From: Flavobacteriales bacterium 33_180_T64
GTDB lineage: Bacteria; Bacteroidota; Bacteroidia; Flavobacteriales; Flavobacteriaceae
Assembly: GCA_002162685.1 (NCBI GenBank)
Contig: MAAQ01000013.1
Span: 124,001-188,000, forward strand
Direction of reading: 5' to 3'
DNA: 64,000 nucleotides
How positions within the stretch are numbered: the stretch's first letter is position 1; every line of letters starts with the position of its first letter. The translations under genes were made by a program, and so were the position numbers. Under the pieces are notes generated by a model. That model had not been told where the DNA came from. It worked only from the letters and a program-made list of their open reading frames with translations, and did no database searches. This document shows positions 21,674 through 63,925 of the stretch, one piece after another.

Positions 21674-21751
21674 GTAACACTTAATTAACCTTTTTATCAC
21701 TTAGGTTTAATCTGTCATTAACACAAAATTTACACTACGAACCTTTCTTTG
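21674..21751 (+). promoter_or_regulatory. Six-repeat Pho-box-like array plus -7 box of the lipoprotein gene
   Basis: Hexamers at exactly 11-bp steps: GTAACA (21674), TTAACC (21685), ATCACT (21696), TTAATC (21707), TTAACA (21718), TTTACA (21729). The spacing and the TT(A/T/C)ACA consensus resemble PhoP boxes of Bacillus and similar 11-bp-phased Pho boxes elsewhere. Nine nt after the last hexamer lies TTTCTTTG (21744-21751), 7 of 8 matches to the -7 consensus, with no separate -33 element. That is the layout of an activator-dependent promoter. The regulator has not been identified in this window. Confidence 0.6.
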
Positions 21752-21793
21752 CATCAATAATTAAAAACACAAAAACTATTTAAAAATAATATC

Positions 21794-23068
21794 ATGAAAA
21801 AATTAGTATTATCCGCTTTAATCGTTTCTTCTTTAATATTTACTGGCTGTTTTAAAGATGATGACACTCCTATCATTATAGAAGAGACAACGATTATCAA
21901 TCAAAATGGTAACGGAACTAGTGGAGAAGAATGTCCTATAGTAAATATTACTGGCTCTATCACTGAAAGTACAACATGGACGAATAATAATATTTATAGA
22001 TTAAACCAAAAAGTAGTTGTTGATAACGGAGCTACTTTAACAATACAAGAAGGAACAATTATTAAAGGTTCTCCAGGAACAGGATCTTTAGCTTCTGCTT
22101 TAATTATTGCTAGAGGAGCAAAAATTAACGCTGTTGGTACTGCTGCTCAGCCTATTATTTTCACATCAACAAGTGATAACATTTCTTGCGATGAAACTGC
22201 AGGAACAAATCTTGACGAAAACGACAGAGGTCTTTGGGGAGGCTTAATCATTCTTGGCAATGCACCTTGTTCATTCTCTGGAGATATTACTGAAGCTCAA
22301 ATTGAAGGCATCCCAGCCGATGACAGCTTTGGATTATATGGTGGTACTGATGCTGCTGATAATTCTGGTGTTGTTTCTTACATCTCTATTCGTCATGGTG
22401 GCACTTTAATTGGTGAAGGAAATGAAATTAATGGATTAACATTAGGTGGTGTTGGAAACCAAACTGTAATCAACAATATTGAAGTTGTTGCTAATGTTGA
22501 TGATGGTATCGAGTTTTTTGGTGGAACTGTAAATGCTACTAATCTATTAGTATGGGCTCAAGGTGATGATGCATTGGATATTGACCAAGCCTATTCAGGA
22601 ACAATTGATAATGCAGTTGTAGTATTAGGTAATTTCTCTGATCATGCTTTTGAAATTGATGGCCCTGAAGGCTCTGCTCTTGGTTCATTTACATTACAAA
22701 ACGCAACTATTATTGGTAACACTGTTACTGAAAATGGAGAATATGCTGATTACAGAAGTGGTGCAACAGGAACAACTAACAATATTTATGCTTTCGGATT
22801 CAAAACGTCTTCAGATATTGAATTAGATAATGATGGTGTAGCAACAAACTATAACAACTCAAATTTAATCTTCGGAGCTTGGGAAATTGTATTACCATCA
22901 GGCGTTACAGATGTAACTACTCCTTTTGTAAATAAAGCTGAAATTGTAACCGTAATAGGATTTGGCTCTACTGCAACTGCAATAACTCAAGGAAATAATA
23001 CTGTTGGAGCAACAACTTCAGATTTAAGCTGGACTTATTCTAATACTGCCGGAAATTTAGGATTCTAA
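21794..23068 (+). CDS. Surface lipoprotein with right-handed beta-helix fold
   Basis: A 424-residue lipoprotein. The signal ends in the lipobox FTGC (Cys19) and continues FKDDD, which matches the Lys-Asp-rich lipoprotein export signal that sends Bacteroidota lipoproteins to the outer surface. The body has repeated short strands and Asn/Gly turns typical of parallel beta-helix proteins (VVDNGATLTIQEGTIIKG, RGLWGGLIILGNAPC, VVSYISIRHGG, DDGIEFFGGTVNATNLLVWA, DDALDIDQAYSGTIDNAVV). Catalytic residues are not recognised. It is followed 84 bp later by a TonB receptor gene, and such lipoprotein-receptor pairs are often functional partners in uptake. The promoter carries a six-hexamer Pho-box-like array and two phosphate-transport genes lie downstream, so a role in acquiring phosphate or a phosphorylated compound is inferred. 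Confidence 0.85.
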   Translation: MKKLVLSALIVSSLIFTGCFKDDDTPIIIEETTIINQNGNGTSGEECPIVNITGSITESTTWTNNNIYRLNQKVVVDNGATLTIQEGTIIKGSPGTGSLASALIIARGAKINAVGTAAQPIIFTSTSDNISCDETAGTNLDENDRGLWGGLIILGNAPCSFSGDITEAQIEGIPADDSFGLYGGTDAADNSGVVSYISIRHGGTLIGEGNEINGLTLGGVGNQTVINNIEVVANVDDGIEFFGGTVNATNLLVWAQGDDALDIDQAYSGTIDNAVVVLGNFSDHAFEIDGPEGSALGSFTLQNATIIGNTVTENGEYADYRSGATGTTNNIYAFGFKTSSDIELDNDGVATNYNNSNLIFGAWEIVLPSGVTDVTTPFVNKAEIVTVIGFGSTATAITQGNNTVGATTSDLSWTYSNTAGNLGF

Positions 23069-26443: not shown

Positions 26444-26474
26444 CAAATTTAATAAAAAATTTACATTTTACAAA
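26444..26474 (-). promoter_or_regulatory. Promoter of the MORN-protein gene
   Basis: On the minus strand: TTTG (26474-26471) as -33, a 19-nt spacer, then TAAATTTG (26451-26444) as a perfect -7 box, 31 nt before the ATG. Both elements and the spacing fit the Bacteroidota promoter model. Confidence 0.7.
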
Positions 26475-26509
26475 CATTTACTTAACATTAAATTAACATT
26501 GAATTAACA
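26460..26509. promoter_or_regulatory. Five-repeat Pho-box-like array
   Basis: Hexamers at exact 11-bp steps on the plus strand: TTTACA (26460), CAAACA (26471), TTAACA (26482), TTAACA (26493), TTAACA (26504); the last three are perfect with near-identical spacers. The array overlaps the -33 region of the divergent MORN gene and begins 8 nt from its -7 box. Relative to that gene the repeats are in inverted orientation, compared with the porin and lipoprotein promoters. Confidence 0.6.
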
Positions 26510-26589
26510 TTGAAGATGCAATTAACTCATAAATAGCGTTTTATACAAAATCAAAAAATATTAATAATTACATAATATTAGCATTACAA

Positions 26590-26616
26590 TTAACTTACGT
26601 TAGTTAATCATATTTG
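26590..26616 (+). promoter_or_regulatory. Imperfect palindrome and -7-like box of an unannotated transcript
   Basis: TTAACTTACGTTAGTTAA (26590-26607) is an 18-bp imperfect palindrome. It is followed 1 nt later by CATATTTG (26609-26616), 7 of 8 matches to the -7 consensus. There is no gene downstream until a terminator about 80 nt on. Confidence 0.4.
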
Positions 26617-26620
26617 TATA

Positions 26621-26725
26621 GTGTTTAAAACACACTATTAGTTTTTCATTTTTAAATCTATTAGTTTTTGTCGACTAGGTAAATATGATTACTAATAAGG
26701 CTGCTTTTTTTAGCAGCCTTTTTTT
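26621..26725 (+). ncRNA. Candidate small RNA upstream of the porin gene
   Basis: Predicted transcript of about 105 nt from the -7-like box at 26609-26616 to a strong intrinsic terminator at 26697-26725. It contains two copies of CTATTAGTTTTT (26635-26646 and 26658-26669). The second copy lies in TATTAGTTTTTGTCG (26659-26673), the perfect reverse complement of CGACAAAAACTAATA (26782-26796), which is the predicted 5' end of the porin mRNA just ahead of its ATG. The only short frame inside runs through the terminator and looks accidental. An alternative is that the region is an untranslated relic or an inverted repeat with no RNA product. Confidence 0.4.
26697..26725 (+). terminator. Strong intrinsic terminator without an annotated upstream gene
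   Basis: Stem AAGGCTGCT / AGCAGCCTT, loop of six T, then seven T. It lies about 80 bp before the porin start and more than 600 bp after the previous plus-strand gene, which has its own terminator; hence something short must be transcribed towards it. Confidence 0.88.
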
Positions 26726-26733
26726 ATTTAAAG

Positions 26734-26778
26734 TTAATCATTAGGAAACATTAAGTTAACATAAGAGTTGGTTATTTG
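26734..26778 (+). promoter_or_regulatory. Pho-box-like array plus -7 box of the porin gene
   Basis: Hexamers TTAATC (26734), GAAACA (26745) and TTAACA (26756) at exact 11-bp steps, then a 9-nt gap, then the octamer GTTATTTG (26771-26778). The last six bases TATTTG fit a -7 box loosely. The 9-nt gap equals that of the lipoprotein promoter at 21734-21744. The predicted start of transcription near 26783 leaves a leader of only about 20 nt. Confidence 0.6.
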
Positions 26779-26803
26779 CAGCGACAAAAACTAATACATA
26801 CTA

Positions 26804-28003
26804 ATGAAACTTAAATTCACACTTGCACTATTGTGCATTGTATCCTATGTAAATTCACAAGAAATTAGTGATACTTCATTCGGAAAAGGACTAATAAATT
26901 TTACAGCAAAAGACAGCTCATTTAGCGTAAAGTTTGCGCCGCGTTTTCAAGTACGCTCAATTTCATCATGGGATCATGATGGAAACCAATACGGAAGTCC
27001 AGAACATAATTTCATCGTAAGACGAGCACGTTTAAAGTTTAGCGGTTTTGCGTATAGTCCAAAATTAAAATACAAAATTGAACTAGGATTATCAAATAGA
27101 GATATCTCTGGCGCAAACGAGTTTAATAGAAATACGCCTCGCTATATATTAGATGCAGTAATAATGTGGAATTTTTCAAAAAACTGGGAGCTTTGGGCAG
27201 GTCAAACTAAACTACCAGGAAATGTTGAACGTGTTGTGTCTTCAGGGAATCTACAATTAATTGATCGCTCTTTACTAAATAGCCGTTTTAATATTGATCG
27301 TGATTTAGGAGTTCAATTACGTCATAAAAGTAATTTAGGAGGTGAATTTTTAATGCGTGAAAAAATCGCAATCACACAAGGAGAAGGTCGTAATGTAAGT
27401 GAAGGAAACCAAGGTGGTTTACAATATACAGCTCGCGTTGAATTTTTACCGTTTGGAACCTTTAAATCTAAAGGGGATTATGTACAAGCAGATTTAAAAC
27501 GTGAGAAGAAACCAAAACTAATGCTTGGTTTCACATACAATCTTAATCAAGATGCAGTTAGAGAACGTGGAGTAGCAGGAGATTATATGTTTAAAAGTGA
27601 TGGATCGCTTTACGAAACAGATATCACAACTGTTTTTGCTGATGCAATGTTTAAATACAACGGCTTTTCTTTTATGGGAGAATATGCAAAAAGAACAGCA
27701 GACAATCCAGCAGCTATAGACATAGATGACACGACTCCAACAGGTGATGTTGTATTAGCTGGTAATGCATTAAACCTTCAAGCAGGTTACTTATTTAAAA
27801 GTAATTATGAAATCGTAGGTCGTTTTACAACTGTAGATTATGAGTCTATTACTGGAACACTACCAAAAGAGCAATACACTATAGGAGCCTCAAGATATAT
27901 TGTAGGACATAAACTAAAAGTTCAATCAGATATTAGTTACACTACTTTAAATGGAAATGATGATAACATTACATTCAGACTAGGGTTTGATATTCATTTT
28001 TAA
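26804..28003 (+). CDS. OprP/OprO-type (phosphate-selective) porin
   Basis: A 399-residue outer-membrane protein of the Porin_O_P family, whose Pseudomonas members form phosphate- or polyphosphate-selective channels. It has a signal peptide (KLKFTLALLCIVSYVNSQ) and alternating beta-strand pattern through the whole length, with FAPRFQVRSISSWDHDGN, NFIVRRARLKFSGFAYSPKL, AGQTKLPGNVERVVSSGNLQ (the family hallmark near residue 130) and the C-terminal ITFRLGFDIHF strand. It precedes a PiT phosphate transporter by 90 bp, which strongly supports a phosphate role. Phosphate selectivity itself rests on the family and context. Confidence 0.9.
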   Translation: MKLKFTLALLCIVSYVNSQEISDTSFGKGLINFTAKDSSFSVKFAPRFQVRSISSWDHDGNQYGSPEHNFIVRRARLKFSGFAYSPKLKYKIELGLSNRDISGANEFNRNTPRYILDAVIMWNFSKNWELWAGQTKLPGNVERVVSSGNLQLIDRSLLNSRFNIDRDLGVQLRHKSNLGGEFLMREKIAITQGEGRNVSEGNQGGLQYTARVEFLPFGTFKSKGDYVQADLKREKKPKLMLGFTYNLNQDAVRERGVAGDYMFKSDGSLYETDITTVFADAMFKYNGFSFMGEYAKRTADNPAAIDIDDTTPTGDVVLAGNALNLQAGYLFKSNYEIVGRFTTVDYESITGTLPKEQYTIGASRYIVGHKLKVQSDISYTTLNGNDDNITFRLGFDIHF

Positions 28004-50261: not shown

Positions 50262-50343
50262 TACTCAAGGTGGGAATCGAACCCACACGACCGAAGTCAC
50301 TGGATTTTGAATCCAGCGCGTCTACCAATTCCGCCACTTGAGC
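50262..50343 (-). tRNA. tRNA-Leu (anticodon CAA)
   Basis: Minus-strand sequence GCTCAAGTGGCGGAATTGGT begins a class II tRNA with a long variable arm. The acceptor stem is GCTCAAG / CTTGAGT (one G-T pair), the D-loop has GGTAGACGC, the anticodon arm is CTGGA-TTCAAAA-TCCAG (anticodon CAA), the variable arm TGACTTCGGTCG forms a hairpin, and the T arm is TGGGTTCGATTCCCA. The discriminator is A and CCA is not encoded. It reads UUG codons. Confidence 0.97.
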
Positions 50344-63811: not shown

Positions 63812-63887
63812 GCGTTCCCTTTCAGGTCGTGCTTTTCGTTACAATCTTTTACAAAAGCAAAAGGATTTCCTCTACAATCACTAACGC
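63812..63887. repeat. REP-like intergenic element B
   Basis: A 76-bp non-coding stretch bounded by GCGTT and AACGC, with AGGTCGTGCTTTTCG in the left half and CCTCTACAATCACTAACGC at the right end. It shares ends and order of blocks with element A at 13773-13852 but diverges in the middle. Confidence 0.5.
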
Positions 63888-63925
63888 AAAACTTCGTAAC
63901 TTTAAACACATAAAATCATTTTATC

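Follow-up and report, generated by a model that had tools for sequence, protein, structure and literature searches.

Comparison across genera indicates that many flavobacteria carry a small RNA gene upstream of a phosphate-uptake porin, and that pairing with the start of the porin mRNA has shaped the evolution of this RNA. The gene described here was found in the window, by which we mean the whole 64-kb stretch of DNA analyzed (Table 1). With a probability of about 0.72, we read it as encoding a base-pairing small RNA (sRNA) that acts on the mRNA of the adjacent porin, as a brake that would be co-induced with its target in the Pho response and would likely block translation initiation.

Table 1. 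Features of the sRNA-porin locus, in coordinates of the window
Feature	Position	Strand	Basis
Four 11-bp direct-repeat units TTAATAATTAC / ATAATATTAGC / ATTACAATTAA / CTTACGTTAGT, sRNA promoter	26561..26604	+	Sequence, consensus
-7 box CATATTTG, sRNA promoter	26609..26616	+	Sequence; consensus TAnnTTTG
Candidate small RNA gene, ~105 nt	26621..26727	+	Predicted +1 = G26621; fold z-score, RNA model match
Hairpin P1	26621..26633	+	Fold; 5/5 pairs changed on both sides; 79.0% of cells paired
Hairpin P2, long stem presenting the pairing loop	26636..26697	+	Single folds and fitted alignment
Pairing segment TATTAGTTTTTGTCG, top of P2	26659..26673	+	Invariant columns, pairing table
Hairpin P3 and T tail (intrinsic terminator)	26697..26727	+	10/10 pairs changed on both sides
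Three 11-bp units TTAATCATTAG / GAAACATTAAG / TTAACATAAGA, porin promoter	26734..26766	+	Consensus of 104 porin promoters
-7 box GTTATTTG, porin promoter	26771..26778	+	TTTG present, consensus TA absent
Target site GACAAAAACTAATA, first 14 nt of predicted porin mRNA	26783..26796	+	Pairing table, covariation
Porin (target gene), 399 aa, Pfam Porin_O_P (PF07396)	26804..28003	+	E = 4.4e-12
PiT-type phosphate transporter (PHO4, PF01384), 766 aa	28093..30393	+	Pfam

A candidate small RNA gene in a phosphate-uptake cluster

The locus lies in a genome of 3.75 Mb, in a neighborhood composed of a lipoprotein gene, a TonB-dependent receptor gene, an opposite-strand gene of 118 aa, the candidate RNA, the porin and the PiT-type phosphate transporter. 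Pfam assigns the porin to the phosphate-selective porins O/P (46.4 bits versus a cut-off of 20.9). The original prediction had placed here an sRNA of some 105 nt that has a promoter and a terminator of its own and could pair just ahead of the porin start, a proposal that the cross-genus comparison supports. All the sequences that it named were found at their positions, including the -7 box of the sRNA promoter and an 11-nt partial copy of the pairing segment at 26636-26646.

Promoter, terminator and a conserved fold are all present at the candidate sRNA, as judged by sequence comparison. The intrinsic terminator, which had been recognized before, consists of a stem at 26697-26720 followed by a T tail; one was found, against a mean of 0.0 in shuffled sequences, and its stem covaries among relatives. 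The sRNA (26621-26727) has a folding energy of -26.8 kcal/mol (z -4.79), equaled by none of 200 shuffles, and the RNA model described below matches its own locus with 86.5 bits, spanning 26616-26723. The 18-bp palindrome that had been noted ahead of the -7 box did not hold: we read it as the last 11-bp repeat units of the promoter, and by eye it is not palindromic in relatives.

As previously stated, no gene is apparent at the locus, and no ORF of at least 60 aa lies between 26413 and 26803. We discarded a small protein encoded at the sRNA locus, since no sense reading frame is open through the sRNA and the lengths of the homologs vary by 1-2 bases. The sRNA and the porin lie on one strand, about 55 nt apart, and the RNA is thus not a cis-antisense transcript. 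A search of 26560-26850 with 4227 Rfam models returned no matches at the gathering score. At E up to 10, the sRNA region gave only 11 weak matches, the best with 19.1 bits versus a cut-off of 50; at E up to 0.1, the search of three related loci (L041, L136 and L120) gave three matches, all at 2128-2266 of L041 and outside the sRNA. In the whole window, the only matches at the gathering score were a Flavo-1 RNA (55.4 bits, 63821-63892, minus strand) and a tRNA-Leu (50262-50343, minus strand).

Conservation and distribution of the RNA

We searched 57 genomes for a close porin (E below 1e-100) and for a match to the DNA of the region (E below 1e-10), with a DNA query that contained the first 27 nt of the porin gene. 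Both were found in the identical 19 genomes, our own included, while the other 38 had neither at those cut-offs. Within the same genus (n = 23), porin and DNA match occurred together in 14 genomes and were both missing in 9. We then used an RNA model with the three-hairpin structure, built from 17 aligned homologs in which 14 adjacent columns at the pairing segment show no variation. This model matched 114 of the 299 sampled Flavobacteriaceae genomes, corresponding to 97 of 236 genera.

The 114 carriers hold 116 model matches. We inspected 110 of them with their surroundings (L041-L070 and 80 of the 82 others, without G205 and G211), and the remaining four are our own and those of G024, G027 and G030 (L001, L019, L017 and L016, respectively). 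A sample of 296 genomes at the level of the order returned eight matches, six of them in the family, one false and one doubtful. The false one (L301, in G452) is a terminator-like hairpin with no loop. The doubtful one (L300) comes from a genome of another family that is 64% complete (G580), and its RNA and leader are nearly identical to those of L120 (G195), a likeness likely due to contamination or misassignment. The plasmid collection held no match.

An exact search for the 18-mer ATTAGTTTTTGTCGACTA in named genomes returned at least 117 stretches. Among the matches listed are Algibacter, Maribacter, Tenacibaculum, Winogradskyella, Polaribacter, Arenibacter, Lacinutrix and Olleya, and the named relatives with the exact loop are, among these listed matches, Flavobacteriaceae or unclassified Bacteroidia bins. 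In 78 of the 80 18-mer matches listed, GACAAAAA stands behind a downstream TTTG or TTTA; the two without it are L196, where the site is altered, and L202.

The stems of the RNA covary, with 29 of 33 base pairs changed on both sides in a fitted alignment of 100 homologs. Because this alignment was fitted to the model it leans towards it, and the 89.2% of cells that are paired are to be read against the lower values of the shuffled (77.8%) and slid-partner (at most 45.5%) controls. Two P2 pairs are unpaired in 57 and 60 of the 100 homologs, and one P1 pair in 42. The RNAalifold structure of the first MAFFT alignment lacked the lower part of P2, which is visible in individual folds and in the fitted alignment; the final version of the latter omits ten weak extra matches of an earlier one.

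Several loci depart from the common arrangement. Three of them, L055 (100.4 bits), L093 (82.9) and L112 (56.1), have kept the RNA with no adjacent porin and no downstream site, and four porin loci have the site without a recognizable RNA. At L061 and L076 loop and site are kept, and the porins lie beyond the reach of the search protein in those genomes. By eye, RNA and site precede at L109 and L150 a different outer-membrane-type protein of 336 aa, followed by PstS- and PstC-like genes that stand in place of the PiT gene. RNA and porin leader are duplicated in G185 (L095 and L097); the porin is absent downstream of L095, where the next ORF reads by eye as an HD-domain protein. G166 has a broken RNA copy upstream of the porin (L305, contig C107), forming with the porin promoter an inverted repeat that by eye spans about 33 nt, and a fuller copy with 48.8 bits (L128) on contig C108, which has no porin.

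These data bear on the possibility that the element works mainly in cis, with the loop folding onto the porin start in mRNAs that read through the terminator, so that the porin is insulated from the upstream promoter. RNA and target are indeed in tandem on the same strand at short distance, and the inverted repeat would form in every read-through mRNA. We nevertheless consider this quite improbable: the terminator itself covaries at every pair of P3, the conserved P1 and P2 would be left without a role, the fuller RNA copy and the porin of G166 are on different contigs, and L055, L093 and L112 retain the RNA without a site.

Pairing of the loop with the porin leader

The segment at 26659-26673 is the exact reverse complement of 26782-26796, so that the 15-nt complementarity first described is exact in the DNA. 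In flavobacteria, the -7 consensus TAnnTTTG is located at -12 to -5, according to the accessible part of PMC9723704. This spacing places the porin +1 at G26783 and gives a leader of 20 nt. C26782 would therefore be untranscribed, and the match between the two RNAs shortens from 15 to 14 nt.

A match of this length is rarely produced by chance. Under a first-order Markov null, exact complements of at least 14 nt occurred in 5 of 20,000 pairs of 107-nt and 24-nt segments (P = 0.00025). The 64-kb window contains six other exact 15-nt inverted repeats with arms within 250 nt, from three places, and their arms are nearly adjacent, like those of ordinary hairpins. In the own genome, exact 13-mer matches fall only in the porin leader and on the opposite strand of the sRNA.

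To follow the pairing across relatives, we tabulated it at 104 of the 110 inspected loci, leaving out L055, L093, L105 (which ends at a contig end), L112, L115 and L128. At 97 of the 104 a porin matches at E of 1e-20 or better, and the porin start usually lies about 190 nt past the RNA start. The target site was located through its core of 8 nt, with at most one mismatch allowed, and for this reason the pairing of the core is partly by construction, while the flanks are independent of the choice of the site. Loop positions -1 to -6 pair in 101, 100, 98, 95, 79 and 73 of the 104 loci, and position -7 in 21. On the other flank, +1 pairs in 98 loci and +2 in 13; if the porin +1 is G26783, the base tabulated at +1 is untranscribed. 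Farther out, the counts range from 11 to 57, with the exception of 89 at +7, where a conserved promoter T stands opposite a conserved A of the RNA.

Loops paired with their own leaders give a mean duplex energy of -19.9 kcal/mol; the mean is -17.9 when the pairs are swapped and -6.9 when the leaders are shuffled. In 71 of the 104 loci the own leader is better than the median swapped leader. Counted by locus, complementarity to the target mRNA has been maintained in evolution. The comparison supports a predicted sRNA that lies in a phosphate-uptake cluster and can pair with the first nucleotides of the porin mRNA.

Covariation and joint loss of loop and site

Loop and leader change together at several loci. 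The flanks ATTAG in the loop and CTAAT in the leader are exchanged for TTAAG/CTTAA, TAAAG/CTTTA (as in L143 and L147), TTACAG/CTGTAA or CTTTG/CAAAG; at -3, T-A is swapped to A-T in eight loci, and L131 has TGG with CCA. The core pair TTTTTGTC/GACAAAAA becomes TTTTAGTC/GACTAAAA at L410 and L442, with both sides changed, and the core itself is altered on both sides also at L120. The original prediction had pointed to co-variation of the two segments in relatives as a check, and in most loci this is what we observed: of the 26 loops that vary, 24 pair better with their own leader than with the median of the 78 consensus leaders, the exceptions being L098 and L130. When compared to the best consensus leader, 9 of the 26 beat all, one ties and 16 are beaten. 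L124, where the loop has changed without a matching change in the leader, is a counter-example. All these counts refer to loci rather than to events, and several of the variants fall in the same clade.

A close porin accompanies the RNA in 105 of the 114 carriers; 48 more genomes have a close porin without a model match, and 137 have neither. We took as a second sample the porin upstream regions of 45 of the 48 model-negative genomes. Loop and site were both recognizable at 14 of these loci, only the site at 4 and neither at 27, and none had only the loop, which points to joint loss of loop and site (P-value = 1.8e-8, Fisher test). At all 14 loci with loop and site, the own leader was better than the median consensus leader; at 9 it was better than any consensus leader, and at the other 5 the best consensus leader wins. 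L408 (CTTTG/CAAAG), L415 (TTACAG/CTGTAA) and the two loci with the changed core, L410 and L442, beat every consensus leader, and L440 (TCTTAG/CTAAGA) beats the median only. Since we judged L444 to be a chance palindrome, the loci with loop and site may be 13 rather than 14. L410 and L442, as well as L419 and L449, are near-identical pairs from one genus each and hence are not independent.

To account for kinship, we placed the changes on a tree of 96 porin loci built with FastTree. At -3, four independent changes were detected, 3.8 of which on average had a matching change in the target, too few for the sign test (P-value = 0.125) to be able to reach 0.05. Three changes at -4 (1.9 matching), seven at -5 (3.1 matching versus 0.7 opposite) and eight at -6 (0.7 versus 0.2) gave a signal that is weak at the last two positions. 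Outside the site, we counted twelve changes at -7 (1.1 matching), eight at -8 (2.3 matching versus 1.7 opposite) and nine at -9 (1.1 versus 2.0). As no single position is significant on the tree, the case for pairing is built on several positions taken together, on the core changes, on the joint loss and on the sharp borders of the match. On the same tree, changes in the loop and in the site number 0 and 10 at -1, 4 and 11 at -3, 5 and 9 at -4, and 8 and 19 at -5; the order is reversed at -6 (19 and 8) and even at -2 (4 and 4).

Template switching between inverted repeats, or quasi-palindrome correction, could also maintain the match between the arms, in place of selection for pairing. The long inverted repeat of L305 in G166, which runs from the loop into the porin promoter, is as expected from this process and shows that such events occur and could create matching arms without selection; the loop of L149, which matches its leader over about 21 nt, fits as well. 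As the source of the general pattern, we find template switching very improbable, because the matching ends sharply at -7 and +2 over the 104 loci, a G-U pair, which the process does not make, is retained at -1 in 11 of them, loop and site are lost jointly, and P1 to P3 covary by themselves. A chance inverted repeat, or a DNA element without RNA function, would suit a region that is AT-rich and intergenic, but the presence in 114 of 299 family genomes, the pairing table, the covariation of the stems, the joint loss and the Markov null leave it with a negligible probability.

Search for other targets

The lipoprotein gene (start at 21794) had been suggested as a second target of the RNA. The 10-nt match in its leader exists (P = 0.017 for a match of at least 10 nt), but it did not hold up among orthologs. 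Lipoprotein matches were found in 28 of 31 genomes, and of the leaders of the 14 closest, 3 contain ACAAAAACTA, namely those of the window, G009 and G016. Others have ACATAAAAACTA, CAAAAAAACTA or similar sequences. G016 has the match although it lacks porin and sRNA matches. The second seed that had been proposed at 26636-26646 met the same fate: the 11-nt sequence is there, but relatives mostly have TTAGTATTTCAT, and the segment is the 5' arm that pairs inside hairpin 2 rather than a conserved seed. We also rejected the PiT transporter, for which 77 starts were located among the 110 loci. The mean loop-leader energy over 76 PiT leaders was -5.92 compared to -5.06 (sd 2.22) when shuffled.

Exact patterns revealed no further trans targets. 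The 13-mer with at most one mismatch had 22 matches in the own genome versus 40 for the reversed control, and none of the 20 inexact ones resembles by eye a promoter-proximal leader. The pattern TTTG-N1-8-ACAAAAACT had 7 matches in the own genome (33 in the control), of which the porin alone resembles a leader, and 82 in 10 genomes (158 in the control); in the 29 of those 82 that we inspected, leader-like sites occur solely behind the sRNA. Similarly, GACAAAAACT-N1-16-ATGA was found 124 times in 40 genomes, sRNA and porin loci included, and 129 times in the control.

Additional targets are possible, given that the RNA persists at L055, L093 and L112 with neither a porin nor a site next to it. 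In an extended scenario, which we regard as unlikely, the RNA would be a hub of the phosphate response, and the 5' end of the porin mRNA would be both its first target and its sponge, freeing or sequestering the RNA with respect to other mRNAs that bind the same loop. This would account for the retention of the RNA at those three loci, and for the smaller number of changes in the loop than in the porin site at -1 and at -3 to -5.

Promoters and PHO-like repeats

Both the sRNA and the porin have PHO-box-like repeats of 11 bp at a fixed distance from the promoter (by eye). With the units delimited by eye, they start at -52, -41, -30 and -19 from TTTG in the sRNA promoter and, in equal register, at -41, -30 and -19 in the porin promoter. 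The consensus of the sRNA promoter derives from 86 of 104 promoters, the remaining ones being without the anchor pattern. We take these repeats to resemble PhoB/PhoP boxes, and from this likeness and from the downstream genes we infer that they act as a PHO box. Since similar repeats are present in both promoters, sRNA and porin are probably both induced by low phosphate, and the 'feedback arm' in phosphate uptake that had been envisaged is plausible. Two observations count against the main reading. First, the TA of the -7 consensus is missing in the porin -7 box. Second, in Flavobacterium johnsoniae at low phosphate, induction was strong for a TonB receptor and a lipoprotein and absent for an OprP-type porin of the same cluster, which is however a different locus (PMC8115612, in its accessible part).

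Similar repeats occur elsewhere in the cluster. In relatives, the PiT gene has a separate TTTG promoter with PHO-like repeats. Three further repeats of the TTAACATT type, 11 bp apart, lie at 26473-26510, about 100 bp upstream of the sRNA -7 box; they are present by eye in several relatives of the same genus and perhaps serve the divergent 118-aa gene. At 21718-21755, the promoter of the lipoprotein and TonB receptor carries the 11-bp repeat ATTAACACAAA/ATTTACACTAC ahead of CTTTG, so that the entire cluster may be phosphate-controlled.

Proposed mode of action

The main, and perhaps only, target of the sRNA would be the mRNA of the adjacent phosphate-selective porin. In the model supported by the comparison, the loop of hairpin 2 (UAUUAGUUUUUGUC) would pair with the first 14 nucleotides of the porin mRNA (GACAAAAACUAAUA), 7 nt ahead of the start codon. 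Flavobacterial mRNAs lack Shine-Dalgarno sequences, as described in the accessible parts of PMC9723704 and PMC6847099. In such a host the A-rich leader is the expected landing site of the ribosome, and pairing would most likely block translation initiation and expose the porin mRNA to decay. The phosphate response regulator would probably switch on both the RNA and the porin through their similar repeat boxes in the same register, and the sRNA may thus be the brake in an incoherent feed-forward loop, capping or delaying the synthesis of the porin during phosphate starvation.

With pairing over nucleotides 1-14 of a 20-nt leader, a block of initiation is the likeliest outcome and protection of the 5' end is the main rival. 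With the opposite sign, the RNA might cover the 5' end of the porin transcript, shield it from decay that depends on this end, and thereby raise porin output. Consistent with shielding, pairing begins at the predicted +1 of the porin mRNA, a coherent loop would likewise have RNA and target activated together, and deletion of the Rfp18 sRNA of F. psychrophilum lowered two target mRNAs (PMC9723704, as far as its accessible part goes). We hold a positive effect to be improbable all the same, since an RNA bound 7 nt from the AUG in so short a leader should hinder the ribosome, and the leader is predicted to be unpaired, which leaves the RNA no structure to open.

Relation to known systems and significance

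Enterobacterial sRNAs of the MicF, MicC and RybB type repress porins, and the genes of MicC and OmpN are adjacent. Like them, the RNA described here is small and ends in a terminator hairpin, and its predicted partner is the 5' region of the mRNA for an outer-membrane porin. Unlike them, it has no Rfam family, lies in tandem directly upstream of its target, would pair from the predicted +1 of the mRNA, has one target found, and occurs in a host without Shine-Dalgarno sequences. MicC and OmpN are the subject of PMC5745476, to judge from its accessible part.

Other RNAs are closer in phylogeny or in physiology. In their regulon and targets, GibS and DonS of Bacteroides thetaiotaomicron differ from the candidate RNA. 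They belong to the same phylum and are likewise base-pairing sRNAs (accessible part of PMC7366714). Rfp18 of F. psychrophilum is also a conserved and structured flavobacterial sRNA with predicted mRNA pairing. By the description in the accessible part of PMC9723704, the predicted partners of its third stem-loop are metalloprotease and adhesin mRNAs, unlike the present RNA, where hairpin 2 would pair with the porin leader and hairpin 3 is the terminator. Proteobacterial sRNAs appear in papers on PhoB or phosphate limitation, for example MavR (PMC8565329) and an sRNA at lapA (PMC12131859); they come from another phylum, and an sRNA in tandem with a porin is not evident in the accessible parts of these papers. 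In the open-licence literature, searched by titles and the starts of abstracts, nothing described the candidate RNA, and work in print elsewhere may differ. To our knowledge, base-pairing RNAs of Bacteroidota come mostly from transcriptomes, and few have targets with comparative evidence.

Here, an RNA family present in 97 of 236 sampled genera has a target site that changes along with the RNA, which allows the base pairs to be predicted to the nucleotide. In common marine bacteria, the locus connects regulation by RNA with the uptake of phosphate, and the pairing would most likely limit the amount of porin made. It also offers a clean test of whether a pairing RNA stops or protects an mRNA that has no Shine-Dalgarno sequence and a leader of only about 20 nt.
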